From: Mycoplasmatota bacterium
Lineage (GTDB): Bacteria > Bacillota_I > Bacilli_A > Izemoplasmatales > Hujiaoplasmataceae
Direction: 5' to 3'
DNA: 41,858 nt
NCBI GenBank assembly: GCA_016342455.1
Contig: JAEIOE010000016.1
Location: 1-41,858, forward strand
The translations under genes were made by a program, and so were the position numbers. The notes below the pieces were generated by a model. That model was not told where the DNA came from. It did no database searches and saw only the letters and a program-made list of their open reading frames with translations. Positions 15,594 to 34,791 of this stretch are shown one piece after another. How positions within the stretch are numbered: the first letter of the stretch is position 1; the number at the start of each line of letters is the position of its first letter.

Positions 15594-15672
15594 GTGCCAA
15601 AACCATTAGACACATATCAAAAATGGGCCAGAGATGGCGTTTTAAATGAAAGAATAAAGACTATACAGGAAC
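15594..15672 (+). pseudogene. 5' fragment of a phage terminase-small-subunit-like gene
   Basis: A GTG start at 15594 with AGAGGAG 8 nt upstream opens a frame reading PKPLDTYQKWARDGVLNERI, then KTIQE. The IS3-family element begins at 15673 and supplies a quick stop at 15690-15692. The KW-ARDG...RI.TI pattern is common in the first residues of small terminase/HTH proteins of Firmicute phages. With so few residues the family is tentative. No continuation of the gene is seen on the far side of the IS, so the rest is deleted. Confidence 0.45.
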
Positions 15673-15741
15673 TGGATTGGTATGGTTTTTAAACAGTGGT
15701 TATAATAGTATATGCATACAAATATGAAAGGAAAAATAACC

Positions 15742-16961: not shown

Positions 16962-17025
16962 TAAATGATATAATCCTATGTATATATATTCATTATTACT
17001 ATATGTTAAAAATACACTTAATCCA

Positions 17026-18803: not shown

Positions 18804-18827
18804 AATACGATTAGTAGGAGAGGAACC

Positions 18828-19355: not shown

Positions 19356-19394
19356 TTAGTTCAGTGAAATATAGAGATAAATACTGATTGTATA

Positions 19395-19430
19395 AAAAAC
19401 ACCAAGATCTATCTAGAACTTGGTGTTTTT
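19395..19430 (+). terminator. terminator after the Rhs/immunity pair
   Basis: Stem of 12 bp, AAAAACACCAAG with CTTGGTGTTTTT, and a 12-nt loop. The right arm merges into a degenerate IS left end. Confidence 0.85.
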
Positions 19431-19530
19431 AAACATTGGGTATAATAGTATATGCATACAAATTCATTATTTTGAAATTCAAAGAAAGCAACACAGTAAT
19501 GACACTGAGTAAAACATTGATTATTTTCAT
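19414..19530 (+). repeat. relic of a related IS left end (F1)
   Basis: The stretch from about 19419, with GTATAATAGTATATGCATAC, matches the left end/promoter of the IS at 15673. After CAAAT it differs from that IS but matches 34646-34704 (shared AGTAATGACACTGAGTAAAA or close variants). It is a relic of a sister IS with no transposase left. Confidence 0.6.
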
Positions 19531-19559
19531 TGTTTTTCATATAAACTTAGTAATGACAG

Positions 19560-19769
19560 CCCATAAGACAAGCATAGGTCTGATACATTCGGTATCAAAC
19601 CTTTTTTTTGCCTTTATTTAGCCGGTTCTACTTTTTATCATTGTGTTAAAATTAGTAACTATATAGATAGTGAATGATCTATTTTGATACAAATTTAGTA
19701 AAAAATCTAAACGAGCTACACGATTACATTTCGAGCTACACGATTTGAAATAGATTTACACGATTACAT
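19560..19769 (+). repeat. dispersed repeat, copy F: terminator plus TACACGATT triplet
   Basis: Hairpin GGTCTGATAC/GTATCAAACC with T-tract (19577-19609), an AT-rich middle, then TACACGATT at 19717, 19737 and 19757, an exact 20-bp period. It closes the Rhs module and precedes the next regulator gene. The 19356-19904 gap holds this and the IS relic, no gene. Confidence 0.8.
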
Positions 19770-19904
19770 ATCTATCAAAATAATTCTTAGTGTTTCTAAT
19801 ATGTATAATATGAAAGATTTTCAAGGTCAACGATACGTATACCTAATATTATTTGTGGTGCGAGATGATTTGCATTATAATATAATCAGCAGGAGGAAGT
19901 TAGG

Positions 19905-20630
19905 ATGAAAAAGATATCAGAGCATATTAAGAAGTATAGAAAAAAGCACAACCTTTCTCAAAGTGAATTTGCTGTTAGATTACATGTAACAAAACAAGCT
20001 GTAAGTAAATGGGAAACAGGACGAGGATATCCGGATTCTTCTTTGATACCTGTTATTGCTAAAGAGTTGGGAATATCAATTGATTCTTTTATGGGAGAGA
20101 AAAGAATCAAAAGCAGAATGATTGTCATATCAATAATATCCACTATATTCATAATTGCGTTGATTATTCTCTTCCCAGTGATTAAGAATTATTTCCAAGA
20201 AATTCGTGAATACAATAACTTTAAGGACAATATAGAAAATACTATTGAATTAGATTTACCTGAGGATGGGTCGTTGGTAAATGCAGAATTTGAGGATTGG
20301 ATAATGTTCGGTAATGCTATCCCTATAAATCGCATGAGTTATCTAGTGTTTTCAAATGAAAATCAAATTGAAACATTTGAGAATGGTTTGGTTACTGATT
20401 CCAGATGGGTGACATTCTTAGATGAAGATCAATTGGAGTTAATGCCTGCTGCTATCTTCGACTATTCTAGTATTGGTAATTATTACTTGTTTTATAATGT
20501 TGATACGAGTTCACTATTAGATTCCAGTGTTAATGATGGTATCTATCATATTCTATTTTTAATATATCAAAAAGATAATAATAGATTAATAGTGTTTGAT
20601 TACTCAATATATATTGAAGGAGGGAATTAA
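19905..20630 (+). CDS. XRE HTH regulator fused to a membrane anchor and extracellular domain
   Basis: A 241-aa one-component regulator. The HTH_3 domain spans residues 1-62 (IKKYRKKHNLSQSEFAVRLH, then TKQAVSKWETG). One transmembrane helix follows at about 71-92, then an outside domain of about 145 residues without known motif. A good AGGAGGAAG site precedes the ATG. The stop is followed after one base by the ATG of a lipoprotein gene, so the two are translationally coupled. A surface signal sensed by the outer domain or by the lipoprotein may control the DNA-binding part. This is inferred from layout. Confidence 0.8.
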   Translation: MKKISEHIKKYRKKHNLSQSEFAVRLHVTKQAVSKWETGRGYPDSSLIPVIAKELGISIDSFMGEKRIKSRMIVISIISTIFIIALIILFPVIKNYFQEIREYNNFKDNIENTIELDLPEDGSLVNAEFEDWIMFGNAIPINRMSYLVFSNENQIETFENGLVTDSRWVTFLDEDQLELMPAAIFDYSSIGNYYLFYNVDTSSLLDSSVNDGIYHILFLIYQKDNNRLIVFDYSIYIEGGN

Positions 20631-20631
20631 G

Positions 20632-21114
20632 ATGAAGAAATTTCTAGTAGTATTGTGTTTAATGGGTACGATTTTACTTAGCAGTTGCGCACAAAATGAA
20701 GAAAGCATTATAGATGATTTAGATGGAAATTATTATTACGTTGAATGTATATATCTTTCACCATTTTCATCAAGTACATTGGATGCCTATCCAGGTCTAT
20801 ATGGGTCATTAATATATATAACTTTTTCTGATAATCAAATTGTATATTATGGCAATGATGATGAAACTAGAAGTTATAATCAAATTGAATTTAGAGAAGA
20901 AGAAGTAAACAAAGATCTAGATGATTTGATTACACTAGATCTGAATGGGGTGTTTGAGACTTTTGAATCTCGTTATGATATTTATAGTGATGATGTTTCA
21001 ATCGGACTGACAGTTTTTGTTGATGGTGATACACTATATTTGGCTGAAACTAGAATGATAGGTGGCAGCAACGATATTTTCACTGTTTGGAGTATAGTTG
21101 AGATTGGGAAATAA
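20632..21114 (+). CDS. small lipoprotein
   Basis: A 160-aa lipoprotein. The true start is ATG 20632, preceded by GGAGGG. The N-terminus is a lipoprotein signal (MKKFLVVLCLMGTILLSSCA) with lipidation at the Cys of LSSC. The mature part is acidic, rich in Tyr and Asp, with alternating strands, and has no family I recognise. It is coupled to the membrane-anchored HTH regulator upstream and is probably its ligand-binding or modulating partner. The repeat copy A follows. Confidence 0.8.
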   Translation: MKKFLVVLCLMGTILLSSCAQNEESIIDDLDGNYYYVECIYLSPFSSSTLDAYPGLYGSLIYITFSDNQIVYYGNDDETRSYNQIEFREEEVNKDLDDLITLDLNGVFETFESRYDIYSDDVSIGLTVFVDGDTLYLAETRMIGGSNDIFTVWSIVEIGK

Positions 21115-21175
21115 TCATATGTTTTAACTAAACATGAAAATTTTTAAATCTACCACTTAAATTAAAAATTTGTAA

Positions 21176-21560
21176 TATAGGGTTCGATACCCCACAATAA
21201 GTAGGTAGTGGAATAACCAATTTTGACACAAAGAAAGTACTACTTGAAAATCACCTCAAAATAAAAAGGCTAAAAAAAGCCATAATTTAGGGGTGCAATT
21301 TTTTCGGGTGGGGGTGTAAAAATTTTGACTAGGGGTGTAAAATTGTAGCAAAATAGGTCATACAACCCATATTGAAAGCATAGGTTTGATACAATTGTAT
21401 CAGGCCTTTTTTTGCGCTATATAGGGACGTTTTTCTATTTGATAGAATTTTAGGAGACTAAAAAGTACTCTGATTTTACTTGTTTTAAGACATTTCATTA
21501 GAATTTCTACACGATTACATTTTGAAATACACGATTTGAATTAGATTTACACGATTATTG
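21176..21560 (+). repeat. dispersed repeat, copy A (full form)
   Basis: Parts in order: GGGTTCGATACCCC (21180-21193, T-arm-like); a TTTTGACACAAAGAAA block; GGGGTG at 21290, 21311 and 21332 (21-bp steps); terminator hairpin GGTTTGATAC/GTATCAGGCC with T7 (21383-21413); TACACGATT at 21508, 21528 and 21548 (20-bp steps). The GGGGTGTAAA and inverted GTGTAAATC cores face each other, as in the two ends of a small transposable element. No ORF inside. Confidence 0.85.
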
Positions 21561-21677
21561 ATAGATGCTCTAGTTTGAAATAAACTGCATATCGTTTTAA
21601 ACTAACTACTCTTTTTATCAAGTAGACAATATCACAAAAAGATATACTTTTTTTAAAAAAAAAGAACAGGCGATATG

Positions 21678-21982
21678 TTGACAATTCACTATTGATATAG
21701 TATTATTAATTTGAAGCGCGACATTATAAGTCGTATCAATGGGGTTAAATTATTACCAGACTAGTCCAACCTCACAGACAAGGATTTGAAAAGACTTTTT
21801 TATAAAAAACTATTTGGATTATGATATCTAAATTACATATACGTGTTGAAATGAACTATTCAATCCAATATATATGACTACTTGCATTAAGTAAATGTAA
21901 TATGAAAAGTAAATATCGCTTTATACAAGAAAACCTGATATGAATATAACAATCGATGAAGCAAATGCTATATCGATTTTTT
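21678..21982 (+). ncRNA. orphan transcription unit, candidate noncoding RNA of about 270 nt
   Basis: A near-consensus promoter, TTGACA (21678-21683), 17 bp, TATTAT (21701-21706), faces a strong terminator: AATCGAT/ATCGATT with an inner AGC/GCT step and a T-run (21951-21982). Between them only trivial ORFs of 14-16 codons without ribosome sites are seen. The 5' part can fold: GCGAC/GTCGT, then TGGGGTT/AACCTCA. No known RNA family recognised. It fills the 21115-22080 gene gap together with repeat A. Confidence 0.45.
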
Positions 21983-22080
21983 AGATTTTTTATTAACGAT
22001 TTGTTTGTTTGTTTGTCTCTTAATATAATCATCTTCTCTTTATATTTTATTAGTGAACATTAGGAAAGGAAGGAATTATT

Positions 22081-22662
22081 ATGAAAAAAGCGCTGATTAC
22101 ATTGATATTTGTGCTAATTATATTTCTTGTGGGCTGTGATTCTAGCACCACACTTTATACAGGACCAATTGAAATAGGTTATAGTGCTGGAGGAGGAGCG
22201 GCAAAAGAGTTTCCAGGTTGGGTTGCTTTTACGATTCCAAATCCTGTGCTAGATGAAGGTGTATCAACGGATATTATATTTGAATATGGTCATGATTACG
22301 ATTCGAATCAATATGATTTATGGTATGAAACACATTCTATTGCCGTATTTGTTTCACCATCTCCATCAAACTATTATCGTAATAGAGATGAATACACTAC
22401 ACTATATGAAGAAAATGTAGAAGATTTCGTTACTGATGAATATCTGGTTAGTGGAGATATTCATAACTTGTTTGGTGAAGTAGAGTTCCATAAATCATTT
22501 GTGTTATCCATATCATCTAGTGATATACCTTATGAACACGGAAGACTGTATTTTGTTTTGTGTAGGGGTGTTTTCTATGATGATATGGAGATCAATCTCA
22601 TGACAATATACAAAACTATTACTTTTAATAATAGTGATGGTAAACTTGTTTTTTACGAATAA
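22081..22662 (+). CDS. lipoprotein of unknown function
   Basis: A 193-aa lipoprotein. AAGGAAGGA precedes the ATG; the signal is MKKALITLIFVLIIFLVGCD, lipidated at Cys19. The mature chain is beta-rich and acidic (GYSAGGGAAKEFPGWVAF, FEYGHDYDSNQYDLWYE) and may be an immunoglobulin-like or carbohydrate-binding sandwich, though no motif proves this. It is followed 22 bp later by a secreted metalloprotease gene, so the two probably form one operon and act at the cell surface. Confidence 0.8.
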   Translation: MKKALITLIFVLIIFLVGCDSSTTLYTGPIEIGYSAGGGAAKEFPGWVAFTIPNPVLDEGVSTDIIFEYGHDYDSNQYDLWYETHSIAVFVSPSPSNYYRNRDEYTTLYEENVEDFVTDEYLVSGDIHNLFGEVEFHKSFVLSISSSDIPYEHGRLYFVLCRGVFYDDMEINLMTIYKTITFNNSDGKLVFYE

Positions 22663-22684
22663 AAAATCGAAGAGAGAGATTTTT

Positions 22685-25030
22685 ATGAAAAAATTATTTA
22701 TAGTTATATGTTTTTCAGCACTAGTTATGCTAATTCCATATTCTGTCAAAGCAATAGATTATAGGGACTATGGATTTACACAAGAAGAAGCCGAAACAAA
22801 TTTAGAAAATGGTTTAGATGATTGTTTATATACGGACTTTAAAGACACTTACTATACACACGGTGAATATATTAGTGTTCAATTTGAGATCAGGAATAGT
22901 AAAGACCTAAAAGGCGATTATGAATATATTGTATCTGTTGAACCCGAAGGAAATGACTTTGACAAAAGTATAAAAATAATTACAAACACAAGTTTTGAAA
23001 TTAATTTTTATTCTACTAAGTTTGGTGAGTTCGAAGTGAAAATATCGGCCAAAGACAATCAGGGAAGCCGCTTTCAAACCAGTCTGTATGTATTCTCAAC
23101 TGAGGATCTAGATTTTGTAAGTAAAACTAGCTTCACACAAACTAAACGACAGTATTTTATGTATTTGTTTGATAAAAAAATGGTAAACGAAGAAGACTAT
23201 AATTCTATTGTTTATGGATATGAAAAACACACTGATATAACAGAATTCATGGAAGAAACTCCTAGAATAAAGGATTTTGAGCAATATATAACAAAATCAT
23301 CCTCTATTATATATATTTATGGCTATATTAGGTTCGAAGATGTTGCTCATCAAATTCATCCAGCAAAAAATATAAAAGTAACACTTTATGATGAGGATTT
23401 ATTTGGTATTAGACAAAATTTGGGAGCCCAATATACTTCTAACACTGGATTATATTGGTTTTCTGTAGAGAATGATACTGGATTCCTCGAAAACGGTTAT
23501 GATATAATACTTGAGATAAAACTAGGAAATGAGTCTTATCAGGTGCAAGATTTTTTCCAAGTATACGAGATTGAATATGGTCCTTTTGTTGATGTTACTA
23601 ACACGTATACATATATAGGCCACACTTTTGAATATTATGATTCCAATAATGATATAGATGATTTTGGAGTGGCTGCCAATTTGTACGAAGCTGCAACGAT
23701 AGGTTTTGATTATCTAGATTTAGTTGATTCTGAAGATTTAGAGGACTATACTTTATTAGGTATTGAGTATCCGTATGGGGAGGATTTCAGTTGGTATGAC
23801 CCACTAACTGCTGATATTTATATGGGGAATGATTACATTAATGACTACATGTGGGATACGCTTTTACATGAGTTCGGACATTATGTCGCACATCAAAATG
23901 ATATCACTAGTTTTTGGCCAGCCGTGCACTCCATGGAAGAAAATCAGATATATGAGTTTGGTGTGTTTGGGAAAACTATTGGTAGGCAGCTCGTGTGGTC
24001 TGAAGGCTGGGCACATTACTTTTGTGTTATGGTTCAACAAGTGATGAATAGTATCCTTCTTAATGTTCCAAATGTAGGTGATACATTAGAAGGCGGCTAT
24101 GATATGGAAACGGTAAAGGCCCCTTCCTATCTAATGGGTGAGGGGAATGAATATGTAATGGGTCTTCTACTGTATGATATAGCAGATACGAACGATGATG
24201 TTGCAGATGATATTGACTGGGGGCATGATGTATTATTTGATTATTTAGAGAGTTATGTAGAAAGTATGAAAGTAAGTGATCCAGACTATGTACTATTCTA
24301 TTTCAATGAATTTTACGACTCTCTTAATTTAGATGCCTATGACGATGAATTTGGACCGTTAATGACATACTACAAAATATCTGCTGCATTAACTTCTCCT
24401 ACTAGCGTATCTTACAATCCTCCAAGCTTTAATTGGGATGCTCAAGGTGGTATTACCTACAATATAAATAATGATTTCACTTTATACATTATGGATTCTT
24501 TTGGAAATCTATTATTAGATCCTATTCCGATAGGAAACAATACTACCTACGTACTGGATGAAGCTCAATGGACAACTGTTTTGTCATCCGGAACTTCAAA
24601 CATAAAATGGAATGTCAGCGCTATACAAACCACAGGCACAGATACTGGACCTTATTTTGCAGAAAGAATCACTTGTAATCTTCCTGTTCCTTTAACATTA
24701 GCGGTTGGCTTATCAAGATCTGGAAATATATTATTCGCAGGATCTTATATCTGGTATAAGTTCACTGCATCTTCGAATTCAAGTTATACATTTGTGTCTA
24801 CGGGAACAACAGATACATACGCTGAATTCTTCAATACCCCTGTAGCTGGTACAAGTATAATTGGTAGATTGTATTATAATAACGATAGTGGACCAGGATT
24901 GAATTTTAGTAAGACTATTACATTGTTAAGTGGTCAGACAATATATCTGCGGGTTAGAGGTAATGACTGGACAGAGACTGGTGCATACTTAGTCGAAGTA
25001 TCAGGTGGTGGTATAAGCTTCGAGTATTAG
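22685..25030 (+). CDS. secreted zinc metalloprotease (gluzincin) with PPC-like C-terminus
   Basis: Exported protein of about 781 aa. The start is ATG 22685 after GAGAGAGA; the frame extends upstream without a good site. A Sec signal (MKKLFIVICFSALVMLIPYS, cleavage near VKA-ID) is followed by a beta-sandwich region (about 45-150), a transthyretin-like segment (about 215-295) and the protease core. The zinc motif is HEFGH (395-399), with the third ligand Glu440 in SEGWAH, spacing typical of gluzincins. After it a fibronectin-like and a pre-peptidase C-terminal type domain (about 675-775, YIWYKFTASSNSSYTFVSTG) should help in surface or substrate binding. Substrate unknown. Confidence 0.85.
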   Translation: MKKLFIVICFSALVMLIPYSVKAIDYRDYGFTQEEAETNLENGLDDCLYTDFKDTYYTHGEYISVQFEIRNSKDLKGDYEYIVSVEPEGNDFDKSIKIITNTSFEINFYSTKFGEFEVKISAKDNQGSRFQTSLYVFSTEDLDFVSKTSFTQTKRQYFMYLFDKKMVNEEDYNSIVYGYEKHTDITEFMEETPRIKDFEQYITKSSSIIYIYGYIRFEDVAHQIHPAKNIKVTLYDEDLFGIRQNLGAQYTSNTGLYWFSVENDTGFLENGYDIILEIKLGNESYQVQDFFQVYEIEYGPFVDVTNTYTYIGHTFEYYDSNNDIDDFGVAANLYEAATIGFDYLDLVDSEDLEDYTLLGIEYPYGEDFSWYDPLTADIYMGNDYINDYMWDTLLHEFGHYVAHQNDITSFWPAVHSMEENQIYEFGVFGKTIGRQLVWSEGWAHYFCVMVQQVMNSILLNVPNVGDTLEGGYDMETVKAPSYLMGEGNEYVMGLLLYDIADTNDDVADDIDWGHDVLFDYLESYVESMKVSDPDYVLFYFNEFYDSLNLDAYDDEFGPLMTYYKISAALTSPTSVSYNPPSFNWDAQGGITYNINNDFTLYIMDSFGNLLLDPIPIGNNTTYVLDEAQWTTVLSSGTSNIKWNVSAIQTTGTDTGPYFAERITCNLPVPLTLAVGLSRSGNILFAGSYIWYKFTASSNSSYTFVSTGTTDTYAEFFNTPVAGTSIIGRLYYNNDSGPGLNFSKTITLLSGQTIYLRVRGNDWTETGAYLVEVSGGGISFEY

Positions 25031-25179
25031 TATAAAATTGTTATTGCTGTCTAAATGCTCTTAGAATGAAAATTTATAGTTTTATTGTAGCAAAATTGAC
25101 TAATTAGTAAAAAATAGACTCTTAATTTTGGTTAACAGAGAGTGAATTTGACACAAAAAGTTGGACTCTTACTGTTTAG

Positions 25180-25566
25180 ATAGAAACCGGGGTTTGATAC
25201 CCAACAATAAGCAGATAGTTGAATAACCTGTTTTGACACAAAGAAATTCTCACTAAAAAGAGTCCGAAAATAAAACGGCTAAACTAAGCCATAATTTAGG
25301 GGTGTAATTTTTTCGGCTGGGGTGTAAAAATTCTCGCTAAGGGTGTAAAATTGTAGCAAAATAGGTCATACAACCCATATTGAAAGCATAGGTTTGATAC
25401 AATTGTATCAGGCCTTTTTTTGCTCTATATAGGGCCGTTTCTCTATTCTCTAATATTTTTGGACTCTTAAAAGTCCATTGATTTTACTGATTTTCGATTG
25501 TTCTCATCAAATTTCTACACGATTACATTTTGAAATACACGATTTAAAATGGATTTACACGATTTC
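25180..25566 (+). repeat. dispersed repeat, copy B (full form)
   Basis: Same order of parts as copy A: T-arm-like GGGGTTTGATACCC (25189), TTTTGACACAAAGAAA block, GGGGTG at 25299 and 25319 and GGGTG at 25341, hairpin GGTTTGATAC/GTATCAGGCC plus T7 (25391-25421), TACACGATT at 25516, 25536 and 25556. The right 165 bp differ from copy C at only four positions. Confidence 0.85.
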
Positions 25567-25608
25567 AGTAATCTAGCCATTTAAGTAGTATAAAAAGATA
25601 ATATTGTA

Positions 25609-25745
25609 TTCAAATATAGTTGATCATATGGTAAAATATTTTCAAAAGGCAAGTTGCAAGTCGCTATTTTTATATCTAGGGCAGTAACTATGTGTCCTAG
25701 AAAATCATAGCAGTGCAATCTTACCGGATTTGAACTATGATTTTT
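25609..25745 (+). ncRNA. promoter-to-terminator unit without ORF, candidate RNA
   Basis: TTCAAA (25609-25614), 17 bp, extended -10 TGGTAAAAT (25629-25637). Downstream are hairpin TCTAGG/CCTAGA (25675-25701) and hairpin AAAATCATAG/CTATGATTTT (25701-25744) ending in T. About 100 nt of product; no ORF. Function unknown. It belongs to the 25031-26174 gene gap. Confidence 0.35.
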
Positions 25746-25799
25746 CAAGTGTTTTTATACAGTTTTTGTTATTATCATGAGATGAAAAGCATATAAAAA

Positions 25800-25818
25800 C
25801 AACCTTCAATGAAGGTTG
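25800..25818 (-). terminator. hairpin terminator, minus strand
   Basis: CAACCTT/AAGGTTG, 5-nt loop; on the minus strand GTTTTTAT follows. No clear minus-strand gene feeds it: the leftward frame at 25848-26099 lacks coding character. Confidence 0.5.
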
Positions 25819-25895
25819 AAATAAACTTACTATAGTTTCACATGTTTTTATACACTTAAAGTGTTGAAAAACTTACTAAAAGTGTCGAAAAAAAA

Positions 25896-25965
25896 ATAAA
25901 GTCGGTACGGTGACTGAAAGCAACTCGGGTCGATAGCACCCAAAAATAGGATAAAGTCGGTACGG
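25896..25965. repeat. duplicated 15-mer around a GC-richer core
   Basis: ATAAAGTCGGTACGG at 25896-25910 and exactly again at 25951-25965. Between them lies an unusually GC-rich segment for this window (GGTGACTGAAAGCAACTCGG and GCACC), whose GGTG and CACC can pair. A plus-strand terminator follows at 26038. Possibly part of an RNA or an old insertion; not assigned. Confidence 0.5.
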
Positions 25966-26037
25966 ACATGACATAATTTAGAAATAATACAAATAGTGTA
26001 ATTAGTAAGAACAATACATAAAGGGATAATATGATGG

Positions 26038-26063
26038 GTTCTCCTTTTTTGGAGAACTTTTTT
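26038..26063 (+). terminator. hairpin terminator
   Basis: GTTCTCC-TTTTTT-GGAGAAC followed by six T. It ends whatever is transcribed across the 25.9-kb repeat pair, or insulates the next gene from upstream read-through. Confidence 0.75.
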
Positions 26064-26174
26064 ATAAAAACGGGCCCTGTGGACCCTGTTTAGGTTCAAT
26101 AAAATATTATAAAATGTTTTAGATGCAGCTAAGTTTATGTTAGTTGTTAATTTAAATAGAGGAAGGTAAGAGTA

Positions 26175-26714
26175 ATGAAAAAAATGTTGTTAGTATTTAT
26201 GAGTTGTATTTTATTGTTTGCGTCTAGTCAAATGACAGATGTTAGTGCGAGTAGTACTTTTACACCTGGAATAGACGGATATATAGGACAATATGCTAAA
26301 ACACGGTTTATTGATGAAGTTGTTAGAGTATACATAACTGAGGATGCTGTTGAGACTATTGAAAGTACAAATACTGATGTTCAGACAGAAGTAATAACAA
26401 CAGAGTCCTGTCTAATTTTTGGTTGGATTTGTACAACCCAGACGCAAACAAAATTTTACTATGAAACAACTATGAAAGTTAATAAAGTAGTAGAGGATAG
26501 ACATCTTTTTAATGATGTGGATTCATTAATTTACATGCTGAAAGAGTTAGAATACAGAGCAAGTAATTATGAGGGTTGTAAAGGTCAAAATGTGAACAAT
26601 TGTGTAATTGGATATGTTAGAGGTATTGATAAAGGCTATGTTTCTGGTTATGGTGGTTTATTCACTTCTGCATTAGGTAATGTTAATGAAGGATTTGTTG
26701 ACTATGTTAAATAA
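26175..26714 (+). CDS. secreted protein, N-terminal part (ended by an in-frame TAA)
   Basis: A 179-codon frame with GAGGAAGG before its ATG. The N-terminus is a Sec signal (MKKMLLVFMSCILLFASSQM, cleavage near VSA-SS). The rest includes paired cysteines (TTESCLIFGWICTTQ and EGCKGQNVNNC). The TAA at 26712-26714 is followed in the same frame by 319 more sense codons, with no frameshift, so this is the first third of a protein of about 498 codons. Either it carries a recent nonsense change or the stop is sometimes read through. Family not recognised. Confidence 0.75.
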   Translation: MKKMLLVFMSCILLFASSQMTDVSASSTFTPGIDGYIGQYAKTRFIDEVVRVYITEDAVETIESTNTDVQTEVITTESCLIFGWICTTQTQTKFYYETTMKVNKVVEDRHLFNDVDSLIYMLKELEYRASNYEGCKGQNVNNCVIGYVRGIDKGYVSGYGGLFTSALGNVNEGFVDYVK

Positions 26715-27671
26715 CAGACTGGAGATAGTGGACTACAGGTTTATGAGTATTTTGCAGCTTTTGTGTCTACGAGTTCATTTAATTCACCGCTCTATGGGGA
26801 TGTTGAGTATTACAATCATGGAGAAGCAGTGAAACTAATTGATCCATTGAATAACAATTACACAACCGAAGGAAGTATAGACTTGATTCACTTGTTTGCT
26901 TCAGTAGATGGGATTTATGAGGATACTGATGCTATACTTGATCCAATTGATGATATTGTTGTTTCTATTGATCATATGATTTCTTGGGCAGGTGATTTGC
27001 AAAAATTCACAGTTGAACTTGAGAATCACAAAGTCACACGAGTAGAAGTTGATAATGTTATCAACTCCTGGTCAGATACTAGAAATAATGAATACGATTT
27101 TTGTAATCTTATAGGTACAGCATGTCAGTTTAGTAATGAGGACATGTTGAGTGATATTGATGCTATGAATATAACTGAGTTGTTAATAAATGGAATACCT
27201 GAATACGAGACGTATTGTGATTATAATGGATTCTGTACAACATATACATTTTATGATGATTTAAATCTAGTGAGTACTGCTTTTGCAGGTTATTACAACA
27301 TTGTAGGGTATGACAACTCATCTGTATTACCGAACAGATACAAAATATTTCTAGACAGTATCTTTTTTGAAGATGGTAGAAAATCTAATGATAGTAGTTT
27401 AAGTGATTTCAGAGATTTGGTTGATGAATATACCGCAATCAAAATTAGTAATGGCAATTATGTTGATGACTGGCCATTATTGAGTAGTAAATCCACATTT
27501 CTTTATAATGCTGGACAAAAAGTTGATATTTTATACAGAGAACTTGCATCTCAGTTGTTTAAAGAGTACATTATAAATATGAGTACTAAGGCAATATATT
27601 CATCTGGTGGAGGTGGAGGGTATTATAACCCAAACAGTCCATATATTATGAAAGAGCTAGCAGCAATGTAA
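26715..27671 (+). pseudogene. C-terminal part of the same secreted protein, cut off by the TAA
   Basis: In-frame continuation of the 26175 gene, beginning QTGDSGLQVYEYFAAFV. An internal GTG at 26763 could start it, but there is no ribosome site and no signal peptide. It contains acidic repeats (DDIVVSIDHM), more cysteines in pairs (YDFCNLIGTACQF, YETYCDYNGFC) and ends with a Gly-rich SSGGGGGYYNP tail. The paired Cys suggest a disulfide-bonded exported protein. A membrane protein follows after 34 bp and could be its immunity or partner protein. Confidence 0.7.
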
Positions 27672-27705
27672 AGTATTATTTCAAAATTTCTTTAGGAGGA
27701 ATAGC

Positions 27706-28143
27706 ATGAGTAATAGTAGATATTTATCAGTTAGAAGTGTTATTTTGGGTCTAACTATATTCTTTGTGTATATGATTATAGGTATATACCTTAGTTTTAA
27801 TGAGCAATTTGAGTATTTGAATGACTTTTGTATAATTCCAAATTCAATCAATTGTTACTACATTAATGTAGCTAGTAATCCATATTACTTGATTGTGCCA
27901 TTATTGAAAATATTCTTAGTGTTTTTTTCAATAGGAAGAAGTAAAAACTTTTTGATAAGAATATTTGCAGCTTATTTATGTTTGACTACTTTAATACTTT
28001 CGCTACTAGGTATTGTTTTTCCATATGACCCTCTAGAAAATTTTATGTTTTGGTTGATGATTGATTTCTTAAAGATAATAGAGATTATCAACGGATTGTT
28101 ACTACTTATTGTTTTTGTATTCATAGAACTTAAGAATAGATAA
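27706..28143 (+). CDS. four-helix membrane protein
   Basis: A 145-aa membrane protein with AGGAGG before the ATG. Hydrophobic segments lie at about 12-30, 62-79, 85-107 and 117-140. A loop of about 30 residues with two Cys (DFCIIPNSINCYY) faces the outside between the first two. It follows the interrupted secreted-protein gene and shares its module, so partner or immunity role is possible; nothing in the sequence proves it. No family recognised. Confidence 0.7.
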   Translation: MSNSRYLSVRSVILGLTIFFVYMIIGIYLSFNEQFEYLNDFCIIPNSINCYYINVASNPYYLIVPLLKIFLVFFSIGRSKNFLIRIFAAYLCLTTLILSLLGIVFPYDPLENFMFWLMIDFLKIIEIINGLLLLIVFVFIELKNR

Positions 28144-28216
28144 ATGTATTTGATTCTTCTTGTCAAGAGTACTGTGTTAAACTATTTAACATGTCTACTT
28201 TTACTGTATCACTAGA

Positions 28217-28380
28217 ATTGTATCAGGCCTTTTTTTGCGCTATATAGGGCCGTTTCTCTATTCTCTAATATTTTTGGACTCTTAAAAGTCCATTGATTTT
28301 ACTGATTTTCGGTTGTTCTCATCAAATTTCTACACGATTACATTTTGAAATACACGATTTAAAATGGATTTACTCGATTA
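28217..28380 (+). repeat. dispersed repeat, copy C (right half only)
   Basis: Starts inside the terminator (right arm TTGTATCAGGCC plus T7) and runs to the TACACGATT set at 28331, 28351 and a TACTCGATT variant at 28371. Only four differences from copy B in about 165 bp. The left arm of the hairpin is missing, so termination here is doubtful. It fills the 28144-28517 gap. Confidence 0.85.
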
Positions 28381-28517
28381 TAGATTACACACTCTATATT
28401 TTATAAAGTGGGCAATAACACCCTGAAAAATAGTAACATTTGTTTTTTCTAAAATTTATGATATAATTATTTTATAAAACAGGTCATTTAACCCGGAAAA
28501 TAAAATAGGTGATATAA

Positions 28518-29768
28518 ATGGTAATTAAAAGAAATGATTATTTAAGAAAAATAATAAGACATAAAAATAACGGATTGATTAAAGTAATAACAGGCATGCG
28601 AAGGGTAGGAAAATCATACCTTTTGTTTACCTTGTTTTACGACTATTTAGTCAGTATAGGAATTGATAAAAGTCACATCATAACATATGCATTGGATGAT
28701 AGAAGAAACAAAGAGTTAAGAAACCCTGATAAATTATTAAATGCTATTGATGATGGGATAAAAGATGATGAAATGTATTACATCTTACTAGATGAAATTC
28801 AAATGGTTGATGAGTTTGAAGATGTTTTGAATAGTTTGCTACATATTAAAAATGTTGATACATATGTAACAGGAAGCAATTCGAAATTTCTATCAAAAGA
28901 TTTGATTACTGAGTTTAGGGGAAGAAGTGATGAAATTCGAGTATATCCTTTAACATTTAAAGAATTTACGTCAGTATTTGAAGGTGATTTAAATGATGCA
29001 TGGAATCAATACTACACTTATGGTGGGTTACCTTTAACGCTTAATTTCACCGAGCACGAAGAAAAATCCAATTATTTAGTCAAGCAGTTTGAAGAAGTTT
29101 ATATTAGCGATATTGTTGATAGAAACAATATAAGAAATGTTAGTGAATTAGAAGAATTAGTAAATATTTTAGCTTCAAATATTGGATCGCTAACTAATCC
29201 AAAAAAATTATCAAATACATTTAAGAGCATTAAAGGAGTATCTGTTACAGAACCAACGATCAAGTCATATTTAACTTATCTAGAAGATGCATTTATGATA
29301 GAAAAGTCTATGAGATATGATGTAAAAGGTAAAAAGTATATATCAACTCCAAGTAAATATTATTTCACTGATTTGGGGTTAAGAAATGGCAGACTGAATT
29401 TTAGACAACAAGAAGAAAATCACATTATGGAAAACATAATTTATAACGAACTAAAAGTTCGCGGATTTAATCTAGACGTTGGAGTAGTTGAAGTTAGAGA
29501 ACAACAAGAAGGAAAATTACTCAAGAAAAAATTAGAAGTAGATTTTATTGCACAAAGAGGGAACGAAAAATACTATATTCAGTCAGCTTATGAAATGAGT
29601 ACCCTAGAAAAAAGAAAACAAGAACAAAGATCTTTACTAAACATACCTGATTCATTTAAAAAGGTTATTATTGTTAAAGATAATATTATGCCTAAACGTG
29701 ATGAATATGGAGTCGTAACGATTGGTTTATTTGATTTTTTATTAGGAAAGATTGGACTTGATTATTAA
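28518..29768 (+). CDS. AAA ATPase with DUF4143 domain
   Basis: ATPase of 416 aa. The N-terminal AAA_14 domain has Walker A GMRRVGKS (26-33), Walker B YILLDEIQ (about 91-98) and the sensor TGSNSKFLS. A winged segment (about 200-250) is followed by the DUF4143 domain, which has the nuclease-like core KKLEVDFIAQRGNEKYYIQS (Glu-x-Asp with a downstream Gln) near residues 335-355. Such proteins are widespread and mostly of unknown role; the C-terminal fold is related to PD-(D/E)XK nucleases. It heads a three-gene operon with two papain/transglutaminase-fold proteins. Confidence 0.85.
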   Translation: MVIKRNDYLRKIIRHKNNGLIKVITGMRRVGKSYLLFTLFYDYLVSIGIDKSHIITYALDDRRNKELRNPDKLLNAIDDGIKDDEMYYILLDEIQMVDEFEDVLNSLLHIKNVDTYVTGSNSKFLSKDLITEFRGRSDEIRVYPLTFKEFTSVFEGDLNDAWNQYYTYGGLPLTLNFTEHEEKSNYLVKQFEEVYISDIVDRNNIRNVSELEELVNILASNIGSLTNPKKLSNTFKSIKGVSVTEPTIKSYLTYLEDAFMIEKSMRYDVKGKKYISTPSKYYFTDLGLRNGRLNFRQQEENHIMENIIYNELKVRGFNLDVGVVEVREQQEGKLLKKKLEVDFIAQRGNEKYYIQSAYEMSTLEKRKQEQRSLLNIPDSFKKVIIVKDNIMPKRDEYGVVTIGLFDFLLGKIGLDY

Positions 29769-29810
29769 GATAAATCGAACAAATGAATCAGGCGAAAGGG
29801 AGTTAGGTAA

Positions 29811-30626
29811 ATGAAATATATGAGCTTTAATCGTTCATGTTCTTATACATGTTTAGCCTATATGATAGGGGACTACGGTTTAGAATATACAGATAAAGAT
29901 ATAGCTATAGAAATGAAATTGGCATACCTTTTTTACAATGACACTAAGAATAATGAGTATTTATCTGGTGCCATGTTACAAGGAAAGAGATGGTTTGATC
30001 TATTTCTGAATCGTCATTCATTTGAATTTGTAGAAAATAAATATAATAAAGTTGATGTGTTAATGGTTATTAAAAAATCAACGCATAAATTAATGGTTGG
30101 AATCAATTTGAAAACCGGTAAACATGCTATGGTTTATTGTCCATCAGAAACGCAACTGTTTAGATTCTTTAATCCGCATTATGAGAATGATGGTGCTGTT
30201 GACTTTTTTATCTATTCAGAACAAGAATTACTTGATCTTCTAGATGATGAGGTTACTGTTGGCTACATTAATCATAATTCAAGAATTACGGTTCCTGAGT
30301 TAGAGCTATATGGTCATTCGAGTGGGTACCTAGATAAATATGTAGTAGACATAATTGAATTTTGTTCGATTGAACATACACTTGATGAGATACTAGAAGT
30401 GAAAGAATCATTGTTTGCTGGACTATTACTTTCTCCAATACCATTGTTAGAGTTTGAGGGAGAGACTGAACTTGTTAATTGTCTAAGAAAATTGCAAACT
30501 GACTTTATAAACTCCTTACGACAAACAAAAACAAACATTAGGCTTCTAGATTATTTAAGTCCATTAGAATTAAATTCATGTGTTAGAAAGTATAAGGAAT
30601 CGATTATAGCAAATATTGTATTTTAG
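29811..30626 (+). CDS. C39-like papain-fold cysteine protease
   Basis: A 271-aa soluble protein. Its first 150 residues look like a C39-type peptidase: FNRSCSYTCLAYMIGDYGLE places Cys10 (or Cys14) as nucleophile, GKHAMVYC gives the His and FFNPHYEND the Asn/Asp region. The C-terminal 120 residues are helical and unassigned. No signal peptide or transporter domain is attached, unlike bacteriocin-exporter C39 domains, so a cytosolic peptide or protein substrate is likely. Second gene of the ATPase operon (42-bp gap). Confidence 0.6.
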   Translation: MKYMSFNRSCSYTCLAYMIGDYGLEYTDKDIAIEMKLAYLFYNDTKNNEYLSGAMLQGKRWFDLFLNRHSFEFVENKYNKVDVLMVIKKSTHKLMVGINLKTGKHAMVYCPSETQLFRFFNPHYENDGAVDFFIYSEQELLDLLDDEVTVGYINHNSRITVPELELYGHSSGYLDKYVVDIIEFCSIEHTLDEILEVKESLFAGLLLSPIPLLEFEGETELVNCLRKLQTDFINSLRQTKTNIRLLDYLSPLELNSCVRKYKESIIANIVF

Positions 30627-30662
30627 TATAGTCAATATATTACTGAAAAGAGAGGTGATTCA

Positions 30663-31904
30663 ATGAGAAAAGGCTTTGATATATTTGGAAAAGAATATGG
30701 TGTAATGTTTAGAAATGATATACACCATAAAGATTCAGCAGGCTATCAATTCTACAAAAAAATGATACTTATAAATTCATATTCTGAAGACTATTTATAT
30801 AATCAATGCATTTCAAAAATCAACATTGAAATCACTAATCATGAATTATTTAGTTTTGCGAAAAAGTTCAAAGGAGAATCAGATATTCAAACAATCAAAA
30901 GTGTTTTAGATTTTACTAGCAGTATGGTAAGAAACTATGATGTTCCTTTTGACAATATGGAATTCGGAAATACAGAGAAAGAGATTATAGAAAGAGGAAC
31001 TGACTGGTGTACTGATATTTCACGCATTGGGTTGGCTATATTACAATGTTTGAATATTCCATGTCGTTTGGCCATATTAGTTAATAGTAGAAAAGCATAT
31101 AATGGTCATACGTTATGTGAAGCATATTTAGATAATGAATACATGATGATTGATTTTACATATGGTGTTTTAGGACTGTTATCCAAGAAATACTCTGTGA
31201 AAGACTTATTAAAGCAACCGCAAATTGTAAAGGAAATTTACAGTTTACAGATCGATTGTAATATTGATTTGGAATATATAGAAGGTTTATACGATATGGC
31301 AGCACTAGCAGAGTATGATATTACAAAAAAACATGATTACTCTATTAGTGTGCCTAATGAGTATTATTTAAACATGATGAATCTTTCGCATGATGGGTTG
31401 TGGAAAATGGGTGAGGATATGAAAATTGATGATTTGATTATTAGAAAAGCTACAGCTGAAGATGCTAAAGGAAAAGGTTATGTTCATTATCAAAGCTGGA
31501 TTGAAACATATACTGGTCTTTTTCCAGATGATGTGATGAGTAGATTATCACTTGAAAAGTCTATAGATAATGCTCGAAAATATCCAGAGAACACTTATGT
31601 TGCCATTGTGGATGATAATATCATTGGATTTAGTTGTTATCTAGAGTCACGAGATGAAGACTTAGAGGATGCCGGTGAAATTATGGCAATATATATATTA
31701 AAAGAATATCAAGGTCAAGGCATTGGTAAGAAACTAATGGAAGTTTCTTATAAGGAACTCAGTAATTATTCCAAACTATCATTATGGGTACTTGGAAGTA
31801 ATAAGAAATCAGTTAGTTTCTATGAAAGACAAGGATTCATAGCTGATGGAAAAACAAAGATGCTTCATGGAAAAGAAGTTATTAGAATGATTAAAAGGAT
31901 GTGA
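30663..31904 (+). CDS. transglutaminase-like / GNAT acetyltransferase fusion
   Basis: Two-domain enzyme, 413 aa. Residues about 75-200 form a transglutaminase-like domain with Cys116 (GTDWCTDISR), His149 (NGHTLCEAY) and Asp164 (MMIDFTYG), the normal catalytic triad. Residues about 253-413 form a GNAT N-acetyltransferase: IRKATAEDA start, YVAIVDDNIIGF, and the acetyl-CoA loop YQGQGIGKKLM. AGAGGTGA precedes the ATG. This domain pair is unusual. With the C39-like protease and AAA/DUF4143 ATPase upstream it may modify a common protein or peptide. It ends the operon at repeat copy D. Confidence 0.8.
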   Translation: MRKGFDIFGKEYGVMFRNDIHHKDSAGYQFYKKMILINSYSEDYLYNQCISKINIEITNHELFSFAKKFKGESDIQTIKSVLDFTSSMVRNYDVPFDNMEFGNTEKEIIERGTDWCTDISRIGLAILQCLNIPCRLAILVNSRKAYNGHTLCEAYLDNEYMMIDFTYGVLGLLSKKYSVKDLLKQPQIVKEIYSLQIDCNIDLEYIEGLYDMAALAEYDITKKHDYSISVPNEYYLNMMNLSHDGLWKMGEDMKIDDLIIRKATAEDAKGKGYVHYQSWIETYTGLFPDDVMSRLSLEKSIDNARKYPENTYVAIVDDNIIGFSCYLESRDEDLEDAGEIMAIYILKEYQGQGIGKKLMEVSYKELSNYSKLSLWVLGSNKKSVSFYERQGFIADGKTKMLHGKEVIRMIKRM

Positions 31905-31927
31905 AGTGACATAATGTTTAGAGTAGA

Positions 31928-32120
31928 ATAGGTCTGATACATTCGGTATCAAACCTTTTTTTGCCTTTTTTTGACATTTCTTGATTATTACATTGTACTA
32001 AAATAGTATAGGTAGTAGATAGAGAATGACATATTTTGATACAATTTTAGTAGATAATAAGAATCATTTACACGATTACATTTGAAATACACGATTAGAA
32101 ATGGATTTACACGATTACAA
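31928..32120 (+). repeat. dispersed repeat, copy D (right half)
   Basis: Hairpin GGTCTGATAC/GTATCAAACC with T7 (31931-31962), an AT-rich middle with TTTTGATACAATTTTAGTA, then TACACGATT at 32069, 32088 and 32108. Same subtype as copy F. It terminates the ATPase operon and fills the 31905-32235 gap. Confidence 0.8.
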
Positions 32121-32157
32121 TAATTTTTAGTTAATAACGGATTATATACTAGAGATT

Positions 32158-32200
32158 CAATGAAACGTTGATAGTTTTTCTTGAGAAATCATTTTATACT
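32158..32200 (+). promoter_or_regulatory. promoter with CAATGAAACGTTG box (acyltransferase)
   Basis: The 13-mer CAATGAAACGTTG (32158-32170) is followed 37 bp from its start by a -10-like TATACT (32195-32200). The same 13-mer at the same distance from TATAAT precedes the HTH gene at 33443. TTGATA overlapping the box would be a -35 at a long 21-bp spacing, which suggests activator help. Confidence 0.5.
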
Positions 32201-32235
32201 AAAGAATATAATTTGAAAGTCTAAGGAGGAATAAT

Positions 32236-33351
32236 ATGAAAAAATACTATGGAATTAGTTATCTGAAATTAATGCTAACAATGTTTGTTGTAGCACATCA
32301 TGCTTTTTTAGCATTCACACCATCAGGAGCGGCATCACCCATTCACGACGGAAATAGAACGATAATATTTTCATATGTGACTGTCTTATTTGATAATTTC
32401 TTCATGTATACATTTTTCTTGATTGCTGGTCTGTTTGCATATAAAAGTCTAGTTTCAAGAGGAAAAGCATCCTATTTTTTGTCAAGATTACTACGATTAG
32501 GGGCAGTGTTTTTTATCGCGACGTATACAGTCAATATTGTTGGTTTTTATCTAATGGAAGTAGTCAAGGGAACTGATCCATACATTAATTTTGGTTTAAG
32601 TAATTTCGCAGGATACTATGAATTCGTTGTTATGAATATTTTTCCTACTCAACATTTGTGGTTCCTATGGGTGCTATTACTGTTCAATGTTATTTTTATT
32701 GTGATTTTTCCATTCTTTAGTAAGGAGAATAAAGTATCGAAACTACTTCGCAATAATGGTGTTATTTTTATAGTAACTATGCTTGTTTTAGGTGTCTTGT
32801 TTTATAGAACTGGCTCTTTATTCTTAGGTTATGATTTTGTTACATTGTTTGGACCTTTCAGTGTTCAAATTGGGCGTGTTCCAGTTTATTTTATGATGTA
32901 TCTATTTGGGATATTACTAGGAAGAAACGGAATTGAAAATACGTTTATTGTGCAGAAATATCGAATGAAAAATTATATTTTCATATTAGTATTAGGAATT
33001 ATATCTGGACTAATCTTTGCATTATTATTAATCAACTCTCAGTTTGAACTACTCTATTATATTGGTGATATTCTAACAACAGTTACGTTTGTTTTGATCA
33101 CAATAGGGCTAATAGCTTTATTTATTAATCATTTAAATCAAGAATCAAAATTTGTAATTGTTCTATCTGAGAATGCTTTTATGATTTACATATTGCACTA
33201 TGGAGTAGTATCAGCGTTACAGGGTATCTTCTATAGAATTGATTTTAACGGTTTTTTAGAAGGTGTATTAGTATTCATTCTTGGGTTTATCATCAGTTTT
33301 GGGATATCATATTTACTTAGAAAAATTAAAATTTTAGCGAAAATAGCATAG
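32236..33351 (+). CDS. acyltransferase-3 family membrane protein
   Basis: Integral membrane O-acyltransferase-like protein, 371 aa, about ten transmembrane helices. The opening YYGISYLKLMLTMFVVAHHA, with the conserved His pair region, is the acyltransferase_3/OafA signature. The helix with NIFPTQHLWFLWVLLLFN also fits. It has no attached SGNH domain. Family members acetylate surface polysaccharides or lipids. A clear AAGGAGGAA site precedes the ATG. It shares a promoter box with the downstream HTH gene, so surface modification may be controlled by that regulator. Confidence 0.85.
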   Translation: MKKYYGISYLKLMLTMFVVAHHAFLAFTPSGAASPIHDGNRTIIFSYVTVLFDNFFMYTFFLIAGLFAYKSLVSRGKASYFLSRLLRLGAVFFIATYTVNIVGFYLMEVVKGTDPYINFGLSNFAGYYEFVVMNIFPTQHLWFLWVLLLFNVIFIVIFPFFSKENKVSKLLRNNGVIFIVTMLVLGVLFYRTGSLFLGYDFVTLFGPFSVQIGRVPVYFMMYLFGILLGRNGIENTFIVQKYRMKNYIFILVLGIISGLIFALLLINSQFELLYYIGDILTTVTFVLITIGLIALFINHLNQESKFVIVLSENAFMIYILHYGVVSALQGIFYRIDFNGFLEGVLVFILGFIISFGISYLLRKIKILAKIA

Positions 33352-33376
33352 AGAGTATTGGTAAAAGATTACAAAA

Positions 33377-33419
33377 CAATGAAACGTTGTTATGTTTTGC
33401 AGTATTTTTGCAGTATAAT
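33377..33419 (+). promoter_or_regulatory. promoter with CAATGAAACGTTG box (HTH regulator)
   Basis: CAATGAAACGTTG at 33377-33389; TATAAT at 33414-33419, exactly as far apart as in the acyltransferase promoter. The tandem TTTTGCAGTA just before the -10 is a further local feature. Confidence 0.5.
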
Positions 33420-33442
33420 ATAAGTGTTTAGGAAGTGGTGTT

Positions 33443-34144
33443 ATGACGTTTGGTGAGAGAATTAGAGCAAATAGAATTAAAAATAACATGAGCCAAAAGC
33501 AACTTGCTGAGTTGCTGAATGTGACACCTCAAACAATATCAAAATGGGAAAATGATTTATCTGAGCCAGGATTTCAAATGATTACTGAAATGACGAATGT
33601 ATTTCATATTTCACATGATGAATTGTTTATAGGGGAAACAGAAGTTTTATATCAAGGATCTATATATATAGCAAAAAAAGACCTTCGAATGAAAAAATAC
33701 TACGATTTCTTTGTAGGACTCTTGATTTTCTTATCTGTTGCGATGATTATTACAACTACTTATATCTCAACTCTTGAGATTTTAACATGGCATTTCACAT
33801 TAGGATTTGGTTTATTTACAATGTTTTGGTTATTTCTACTTTTTATGACATCCAGATGGAGATATATCTATTTGGATTCTCCGAATGATTTGCTTGATAT
33901 CTATCATGATAAAGTGGTAATTCAAAAAGGTAATTTAACGGTCGAAGGAATCAAAATTAAGAACATATATATTAAGAAATATCAATTTTATTCAGGTATT
34001 CGTGTTTATGAAAACAACGGTTTTTTGAAAATCTTAACAACAGATAATCAAATGTTAGTTGTGAGAGATATAATCGACATCGAGGATTTAAAGAAAGTTA
34101 TATATAAAATGAAAATTCAATTTATTGAGGAGGAAACAAAATGA
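33443..34144 (+). CDS. XRE HTH regulator with two membrane helices
   Basis: A 233-aa protein. HTH_3 spans residues 3-60 (RIRANRIKNNMSQKQLAELL, then TPQTISKWEND). Two transmembrane helices at about 88-108 and 117-137 follow, then a C-terminal domain of about 90 residues resembling PH-like folds (IYHDKVVIQKGNLTVEGIKI). The ATG lies after GAAGTGGTG. Its stop overlaps the next ATG (ATGA). The promoter box it shares with the acyltransferase gene makes that gene and itself likely targets. Confidence 0.8.
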   Translation: MTFGERIRANRIKNNMSQKQLAELLNVTPQTISKWENDLSEPGFQMITEMTNVFHISHDELFIGETEVLYQGSIYIAKKDLRMKKYYDFFVGLLIFLSVAMIITTTYISTLEILTWHFTLGFGLFTMFWLFLLFMTSRWRYIYLDSPNDLLDIYHDKVVIQKGNLTVEGIKIKNIYIKKYQFYSGIRVYENNGFLKILTTDNQMLVVRDIIDIEDLKKVIYKMKIQFIEEETK

Positions 34145-34347
34145 ATTATTTATGGGGAAGTTTAATGGCTTTGATTGGTTTATTTTTATTAGTTAGCGCA
34201 CTTAAGAAAAGTGAATTTATCATTTATAAACTTTTTGTAGCAAGAGCAAAACTGCTATGGGGAGATAACGTGCATTCATTCTTCGTAGTAGTAGGAGTCA
34301 TTCTAATGGGACTAAGTTCTTTATTCTTTTTTGGAATTTGGGGTTAG
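34141..34347 (+). CDS. small two-helix membrane protein
   Basis: A 68-aa protein with hydrophobic helices at about 4-21 and 45-66 and a basic loop between. The ATG overlaps the stop of the HTH-membrane regulator, and GAGGAGG lies before it, so the two are made together. It is probably a partner of the regulator in the membrane. No family recognised. Confidence 0.7.
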   Translation: MNYLWGSLMALIGLFLLVSALKKSEFIIYKLFVARAKLLWGDNVHSFFVVVGVILMGLSSLFFFGIWG

Positions 34348-34376
34348 ACATTCTATTCTAATATTTAAATACGGAA

Positions 34377-34593
34377 GTATGGGTTCGACACCCCACAATA
34401 AGATGATAGTGGAATAACCTATTTTGACACAAAGAAAATACCATTTGAAAATCAACTCATAATAAAAAAAGCTAAACTAAGCCATAATTTAGGGGTGCGC
34501 AAGTTTTCTTTGGGGGTGCGCAATTGTATTAAAATAGGTTACACAACCCATATTGAAAGCATAGGTTTGATACAATTGTATCAGGCCTTTTTT
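34377..34593 (+). repeat. dispersed repeat, copy E (left half)
   Basis: T-arm-like GGGTTCGACACCCC (34381-34394), TTTTGACACAAAGAAA block, GGGGTG twice (about 34492 and 34513), hairpin GGTTTGATAC/GTATCAGGCC with T-tract (34564-34593). The right half with TACACGATT is absent; an IS left end replaces it from 34593. Confidence 0.8.
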
Positions 34594-34710
34594 GGATTGG
34601 TATGGTTTTTAAACAGTGAGTATAAAGGTATATGTATACAAATACAGTATTTTTATATTCAAAGAAAGCAATTTAGTGATGACACTGAGTAAAACATTGA
34701 TTACTTATTA
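34593..34710 (+). repeat. relic of an IS left end (E1)
   Basis: TGGATTGGTATGGTTTTTAA at 34593-34612 equals the first 20 bases of the IS at 15673. After CAAAT (about 34643) the sequence follows instead the relic at 19.48 kb (CAAAGAAAGCAA, GACACTGAGTAAAACATTGA). No transposase gene remains. The 34348-34791 gap holds only this and copy E. Confidence 0.7.
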
Positions 34711-34791
34711 TTTTATATCATGTGTTTTTGAAAAACCACTTATTTAAGAATTGTAAAAATGGTATAATGTTGATAAAAGAGGGGGATTTAT

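Follow-up and report, generated by a model that had tools for sequence, protein, structure and literature searches.

The closest described kind of locus to the one analyzed here is the ssrA island of Dehalococcoides (DsiB/DsiA), and the staphylococcal and Enterococcus cassette chromosomes (SCC and ECC) are also close. The Dehalococcoides islands have a CcrB-like serine recombinase and lie in tandem downstream of the transfer-messenger RNA (tmRNA) gene; 16 of 31 carry the integration module and the others do without it (PMC3146451). They target ssrA and no other gene, within its T-loop, and have a direct repeat of 20 bp (PMC3146451). The site used by SCC and ECC is the 3' end of rlmH, where the core is TATCATAA, and pseudo-SCC elements without a recombinase are known (PMC6222049). 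Islands of the Islander/TIGER type integrate site-specifically at tRNA and tmRNA genes and form tandem arrays, usually by means of tyrosine integrases, which split the tRNA gene and then restore it (PMC4383910). Here we analyze 41,858 nt of contig JAEIOE010000016.1 from a Mycoplasmatota bacterium (GCA_016342455.1), hereafter the window, together with loci elsewhere in the source genome and in 61 relatives. The window appears to hold site-specific integrative cassettes in a tandem array, a system based on pairs of CcrAB-like large serine recombinases (LSRs), a reading to which we give a probability of about three in four.

Several features set these units apart. Unlike the Dehalococcoides islands, they occur behind many tRNA genes as well as tmRNA, begin exactly at the CCA end, share almost no repeat with it, and are mostly 1–4 kb, terminator-capped and co-oriented. 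Insertion into the tmRNA T-loop with a 20-bp direct repeat was not found, the joints lying at the CCA of several tRNAs. Paired recombinases of similar size, a circular att site with inverted repeats, and variable cargo recall SCC and ECC (PMC6222049). The type-S recombinases of about 436 and 527 aa compare with NCBIfam models of 442 (CcrA) and 542 (CcrB) positions. Unlike in SCC and ECC, however, insertion is at tRNA and tmRNA 3' ends and not at rlmH, the recombinases score far under the CcrA and CcrB cut-offs, and small cassettes stand in long arrays, which are not the rule there. In contrast to the Islander/TIGER islands, the tRNA stays whole and only its terminator is replaced. As far as PMC3146451 and PMC6222049 show, neither of the two nearest systems has a CCA target in many tRNAs, a terminator cap, or small co-oriented arrays. 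Such cassettes appear undescribed in the literature searched: the open literature, with subscription papers outside its scope, gave no description of them in this order.

The first-pass annotation had described six copies or half-copies of one repeat, all in one orientation and each sited between gene modules, and the window bears this out. Copies A and B share about 85% identity across 375 nt, and B and C 98% across 167 nt, both far above chance. The proposed terminators are backed by folding: in every copy tested the hairpin lies well below shuffles (z ~ -3.4 to -4.1), and a scan of the window gave 15 terminator-like sites, with the A, B, and E hairpins among them, where shuffled sequence gave 4.7 ± 2.2. 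These hairpins probably terminate transcription. An even genomic spread of the repeat would have spoken against an array; instead, the repeat clusters in arrays on contigs C39, C41, C51, C63, C72, C90, and C96 of the source genome. In relatives it likewise forms same-strand arrays, many of which begin at tRNA or tmRNA 3' ends.

Comparison of the window copies with those elsewhere in the source genome and in relatives identifies the repeat as the joint of two insertion units, which supports the cassette array originally proposed. Left of the joint stands the right end of a type-S unit: a GGGTTCGATACC block, one to four (A)GGGGTG(C/T) sites at 20–21 nt, and the constant end AATTGTA(T/G)CAAAATAGGTCATACAACCCA, whose terminal part is ...AAAATAGGTCATACAACCCA. 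Right of the joint, the left end of the next unit opens with a hairpin terminator, TATTGAAAGCATAGGTTTGATACAATTGTATCAGGCC plus a T run, behind which two to six TACACGATT sites often lie 20 nt apart; of 73 core sites, 39 have no such TACACGATT series. With a period of 20–21 nt and in mutually inverted orientation, the GGGGTG and TACACGATT repeats flank the joint. Whereas type-S units have the terminator core and the GGGGTG end, type-L units start with GATTATACCAAGTT and end with GAGTAAAAC. Despite these different ends, the two types appear to use one target site and to mix within one array. At contig C51 (L032, ~1570–2180), a group II intron maturase gene fragment stands in place of the joint's terminator.

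A CA dinucleotide directly precedes the joint in 44 of 53 non-tRNA joints. Across 31 constant-end joints, the arms 15–28 nt from this CA are 73.5% symmetric at the exact centre and 22–36% at other offsets. Dyad symmetry around a 2-bp crossover is the form of an LSR site, and the attP-type symmetry found here, centred on CA, is as expected for such an enzyme; crossover at CA is accordingly a prediction from sequence. Under the mechanism we propose, a unit would integrate at the 3' CCA terminus of a gene for a tRNA or tmRNA, or beside an earlier unit there, with LSR pairs catalyzing the crossover at CA. This dinucleotide is non-palindromic, which would explain the single orientation of the units. 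The left-end terminator would stand in for the tRNA terminator displaced by insertion and, inside an array, halt transcription from the preceding unit. The right end of the unit would restore a ...CA joint, so that further units could be added. Autonomous units bear the LSR pair; most units are small cassettes free of a recombinase and would presumably be moved in trans.

The repeat is carried by 36 of the 61 relatives, across several families of a single Acholeplasma-like order. The exact core pattern occurs at 37 loci across 85,462 species genomes; most are titled Acholeplasmataceae, Acholeplasmatales or Izemoplasma-type, and for a few the title goes no further than Bacillota, Bacilli, Bacillales, Clostridium or Clostridiales. 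The core position lies exactly 9 nt past a tRNA or tmRNA end in 24 of 82 distinct cores (0.003 expected), the targets being tmRNA and the tRNAs for Leu, Gly, Ser, His, and Trp. The CCA of the tRNA or tmRNA gene immediately precedes the first unit in relatives. Downstream of the CCA of tRNA-Leu(GAG) and tRNA-Gly(TCC), genomes differ in having a cassette start, a native terminator or gene, or the start of another element family. The array behind tRNA-Gly in G021 extends over 71.5–108.6 kb with at least seven units. A phage collection returned no match; viral contigs gave four hits, one adjoining a called tRNA, and these look like the chromosomal neighbours of prophages. A further family also begins right after a tRNA CCA, as (G)AARTRGCTTCCAAAAGTTGGAGATATGG...CTCTGATGAAGGGAGCTATTTTTTT (L199, L205, L176, L186, and G021 at ~105.0 and 108.6 kb), apparently a structured terminator; this CCA-starting end family (...AGCTTCCAAAAGTTGGAG...) has no match in Rfam.

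An occupied and an unoccupied version of the same site could be compared in one genus. Behind tRNA-Gly, G032 has TTCGTTATATAAGCAAATCACATGATTTGCTTTTTTTT, and G014 has two complete units (L082, 8909–12479 and 12480–14832) and then CTGTTATTTGAAAGCAAATCATATGATTTGCTTTTTTTT, from which point the two genomes align at 79% over 1171 bp. The insert of G014 is therefore two whole modules, 5.9 kb, placed exactly between tRNA-Gly and its native terminator. At tRNA-Leu, compared in G014, G021, G027, and G032, site and distal gene are shared; that comparison is less clean because G014 has an extra acetyltransferase-like gene. Module content at a single tRNA varies between species.

This site bears on two other explanations. 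The repeats could be miniature transposons with IS21- or Tn7-like ends, lying between ordinary chromosomal operons, and their short multiple repeats, inverted on two sides, do look like transposase-binding ends. We regard this as very improbable, since whole modules rather than repeats alone were inserted at the unoccupied site and are common to several genomes, there is no target duplication, and the sites share a single, exact spacing from tRNA ends. An IS21 transposase was found above cut-off in 2 of the 61 relatives and not in the source genome. An origin as IS21 ends or miniature inverted-repeat elements was rejected on this near-absence and the fixed tRNA distance, and the G014/G032 site contradicts it. 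Alternatively, homologous recombination between repeats after DNA uptake may have assembled the arrays, which would then be relics with no dedicated enzyme active today. The 98% identity of the right halves of B and C, as with conversion or duplication, the deletion of several joints (C and D), and the array-bearing genomes without LSR genes agree with that account. However, insertion at tRNA-Gly is precise at CCA, modules with different ends meet at the same dinucleotide, and LSR pairs are intact in several genomes and on a plasmid, so that we consider it improbable. Exchange of modules at the repeats, as first suggested, is retained, but the joints indicate site-specific recombination at CA rather than general recombination between repeats.

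The cassettes themselves are small. Among the loci examined, 43 of 44 distinct complete cassettes are recombinase-free, with a median of 2.5 kb (range 0.8–7.1 kb) and about one to three genes per unit; 105 of their 111 open reading frames (ORFs) of at least 100 aa read along the array direction. The textbook way to stockpile single-gene cassettes is the integron, whose arrays are analogous in function: recombinase-free, co-oriented cassettes with a recombination site at each 3' end. A true integron, with IntI acting on attC sites, would also suit the small size and the palindromic constant 3' end of the cassettes. We give this practically no credence. An integron integrase scored above the model cut-off in 1 of the 61 genomes (G033) and was not found in the source genome; none adjoins the arrays, whose starts are tRNA genes. 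The integron was rejected on the absence of IntI. Here entry is at the end of a tRNA or tmRNA gene, the recombinases are of the serine type, and each cassette has a 5' terminator.

Modules travel singly and are common to different families, with homology beginning at the repeat. From the core on, window positions 28213–30606 (a DUF4143 ATPase gene and the next gene) are 86% identical in DNA to G055, a genome of another family; the ATPases share 94% protein identity, whereas rsmH of the two genomes shares 52%. The module also occurs at another location in G021, with 82% DNA identity. Positions 33377–34502 are 95.5% identical to a cassette (L157) in an Acholeplasmataceae metagenome-assembled genome, and the first 970 of these (33377–34346) match, at 87.7% identity, an MO-XQ plasmid cassette that has a joint on each side. 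AAA_14/DUF4143-like genes are the commonest recurring gene, with 12 in the loci examined, and PADLOC matches the one in the window to its candidate PDC-S01. On contig C41 (L031, 6930–11690), modules between array sites, as read from the sequence, include an RNase III-like pair, genes that resemble FeoA/FeoB and Fur, and genes for diguanylate cyclase/PAS proteins, and cargo therefore seems to go beyond defence. In G033, a GroEL-like ORF lies directly after a joint (L251, flipped, from 14203) and may be cargo or chromosome.

LSR genes lie inside mobile units of both types. In G021 and G022, type-S pairs are bounded by a core and an end; in G013, G033, and G017 they adjoin a core or end on the same strand. 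Type-L pairs occur in the window, L256, L284, and L285. The window type-L gene order is matched by the L256 unit, which starts exactly at the tRNA-Leu CCA in G017, and by source-genome units starting exactly at tmRNA and tRNA-Cys. Against NCBIfam CcrB, the type-S proteins reach E-values of 1e-36 to 1e-41; CcrB scores are 124–140 bits, far under the cut-off of 900 bits. In a tree, the type-S pair proteins form two clades with largely parallel membership. The MO-XQ plasmid (CP017949, L280; 93 kb) has both a type-S pair and a cassette array, with no tRNA called in the 45 kb read, and is a possible vehicle between cells.

Several observations weigh against this reading. No LSR was seen in the array-bearing genomes G006, G057, G028, and G048, and by hand count the repeat occurs in 15 of 22 genomes with LSRs and 21 of 39 others, though many genomes are incomplete. 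This association is unconvincing, and the case therefore rests on the position of the LSRs inside units. Many genomes are fragmented metagenome assemblies whose contigs break at repeats. The type-S LSR genes lie mid-unit and not at the unit end, neither joint C nor joint D is complete, and no excision circles were seen. Moreover, LSRs are not known to depend on flanking sites repeated at 20 nt, which better fit a tyrosine integrase or transposase, and no LSR precedent is known that accounts for the presumed role of the 20-nt repeats. Movement by a tyrosine integrase in trans, with the TACACGATT and GGGGTG repeats as arm-type sites on either side of a core that lies at the tRNA end, is the least improbable of the rivals, though unlikely. 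The mutually inverted repeats stand around the joint as arm sites would, such enzymes classically target the 3' ends of tRNA genes, and the type-L unit holds a tyrosine-recombinase-like gene. Yet that gene is missing from the type-S units seen, while LSR pairs occur in both types, and the frequent absence of the TACACGATT run (39 of 73 sites) does not fit arm sites. Tyrosine systems also usually repeat a longer piece of the tRNA, whereas here no tRNA 3' segment is duplicated at the far end and joint identity is only ~2–4 nt.

If the cassettes are indeed moved in trans, the arrays can be read as an archive of the genes exchanged within a little-studied order of wall-less-related bacteria, with cargo that spans restriction-modification, CBASS cyclase, AbiE, DUF4143 candidates, metal transport, c-di-GMP signalling, and surface proteins. 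The built-in terminator would be a neat answer to inserting behind a tRNA without harming its transcription. Since the tRNA CCA ends apparently targeted by the recombinase pairs exist in every genome, the specificity of the pairs is worth measuring. More tentatively, at somewhat less than even odds, this may be an order-wide, integron-like form of gene capture, based on pairs of serine recombinases and independently evolved. Small recombinase-free cassettes with 5' terminator caps would form a shared pool, enter in trans behind tRNA genes at their 3' ends, and stack up co-oriented, with two end families on the same target. No serine-recombinase system of integron architecture turned up in the open literature searched.

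In the window, the array consists of the right end of one unit, a type-L unit, five type-S cassettes, and a remnant (Table 1), and begins at or before base 1. The first-pass annotation had placed it at 19414–34710. That interval does hold an array, but two earlier units precede it, and it is therefore the second part of a longer, mixed one. A separate promoter for each module found no support, a promoter scan giving 111 hits against 113 expected by chance, and the suggested pairing of a regulator with a surface protein, or toxin with immunity gene, fits some modules and not the rest.

Table 1. Coordinates of array units, genes, and repeat copies in the window.
Feature	Position	Strand	Description
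Right end of preceding unit	1-179	+	Three GAGTAAAACTCCG at ~20-nt spacing or multiples, then ...TAACAAGACA; joint after 179
Type-L unit, autonomous	180-19563	+	Left end GTTTTATTATATTAAGTTTATT..., right end ...AGTAATGACAGCCCA
Large serine recombinase 1	666-2327	-	CcrB-like, 552 aa; Pfam Resolvase 2.6e-32, Recombinase, Zn_ribbon_recom; NCBIfam CcrB 2.4e-38, below cut-off
Large serine recombinase 2	2317-4053	-	CcrB-like, 577 aa; NCBIfam CcrB 1.2e-40, below cut-off; tree
Type-L right end	19425-19563	+	Left part of copy F; GAGTAAAAC... AGTAATGACAGCCCA; joint after 19563
Cassette 1	19564-21369	+	Terminator 19564-19610; three TACACGATT 19717-19765
Cassette 1 genes	19905-20630; ~20632-21114		Helix-turn-helix (HTH) regulator; lipoprotein
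Cassette 1 right end	21289-21338		Two GGGGTG sites, constant end; joint after 21369
Cassette 2	21370-25377	+	Terminator 21382-21415; three TACACGATT 21508-21556
Cassette 2 genes	22081-22662; ~22682-25030		Second large, secreted, HEFGH metalloprotease-like motif
Cassette 2 right end	25298-25346		GGGGTG sites, constant end; joint after 25377
Cassette 3	25378-28210	+	Terminator 25390-25423; three TACACGATT 25516-25564
Cassette 3 genes	26175, 26763, 27706		Right end lost at copy C
Cassette 4	28211-31913	+	Starts inside the core (copy C) and has lost its right end at copy D; TACACGATT sites 28331-28379
Cassette 4 genes	28518-29768; 29811-30626; 30663-31904		AAA_14/DUF4143 ATPase (PADLOC PDC-S01); second gene; transglutaminase-like/GNAT
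Cassette 5	31914-34550	+	Copy D terminator 31917-31965; three TACACGATT 32069-32116
Cassette 5 genes	32236-33351; 33443-34144		Acyltransferase; HTH protein; also a small gene
Cassette 5 right end	34492-34525		GGGGTG sites, constant end; joint after 34550
Remnant unit	34551-34720	+	Terminator 34551-34594; decayed type-L right end, 86% like 19425-19526; chromosome next
Copy A	21180-21560		Full
Copy B	25190-25570		Full
Copy C	28211-28380		Right half only
Copy D	31914-32117		Right half only
Copy E	34381-34594		Left half only, then decayed end
Copy F	19425-19770		Full, but left half differs

The first 179 bases bear GAGTAAAAC repeats, and a matching end (GACAAGACA) precedes type-L left ends in contig C31 (L287). 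The start of the window type-L unit is related to GGTTGATTATACCAAGTT. Besides its LSR pair, this unit encodes HTH, tyrosine-recombinase-like, BRO/KilAC, methylase, KAP NTPase, and Rhs-like proteins. An IS3-type transposase pair (15712–16961) lies within it just ahead of the Rhs-like gene fragment (17166–18803), behind which follows a small membrane protein gene. Joints C and D were damaged by deletions. No unoccupied version of the window locus was found; homologues of the right-flank gene, which encodes a B12-binding protein, are 29–39% identical, and none is in the same genus. Outside the array, a T-box leader (39172–39388, 138 bits) lies upstream of an amino-acid ABC transporter.

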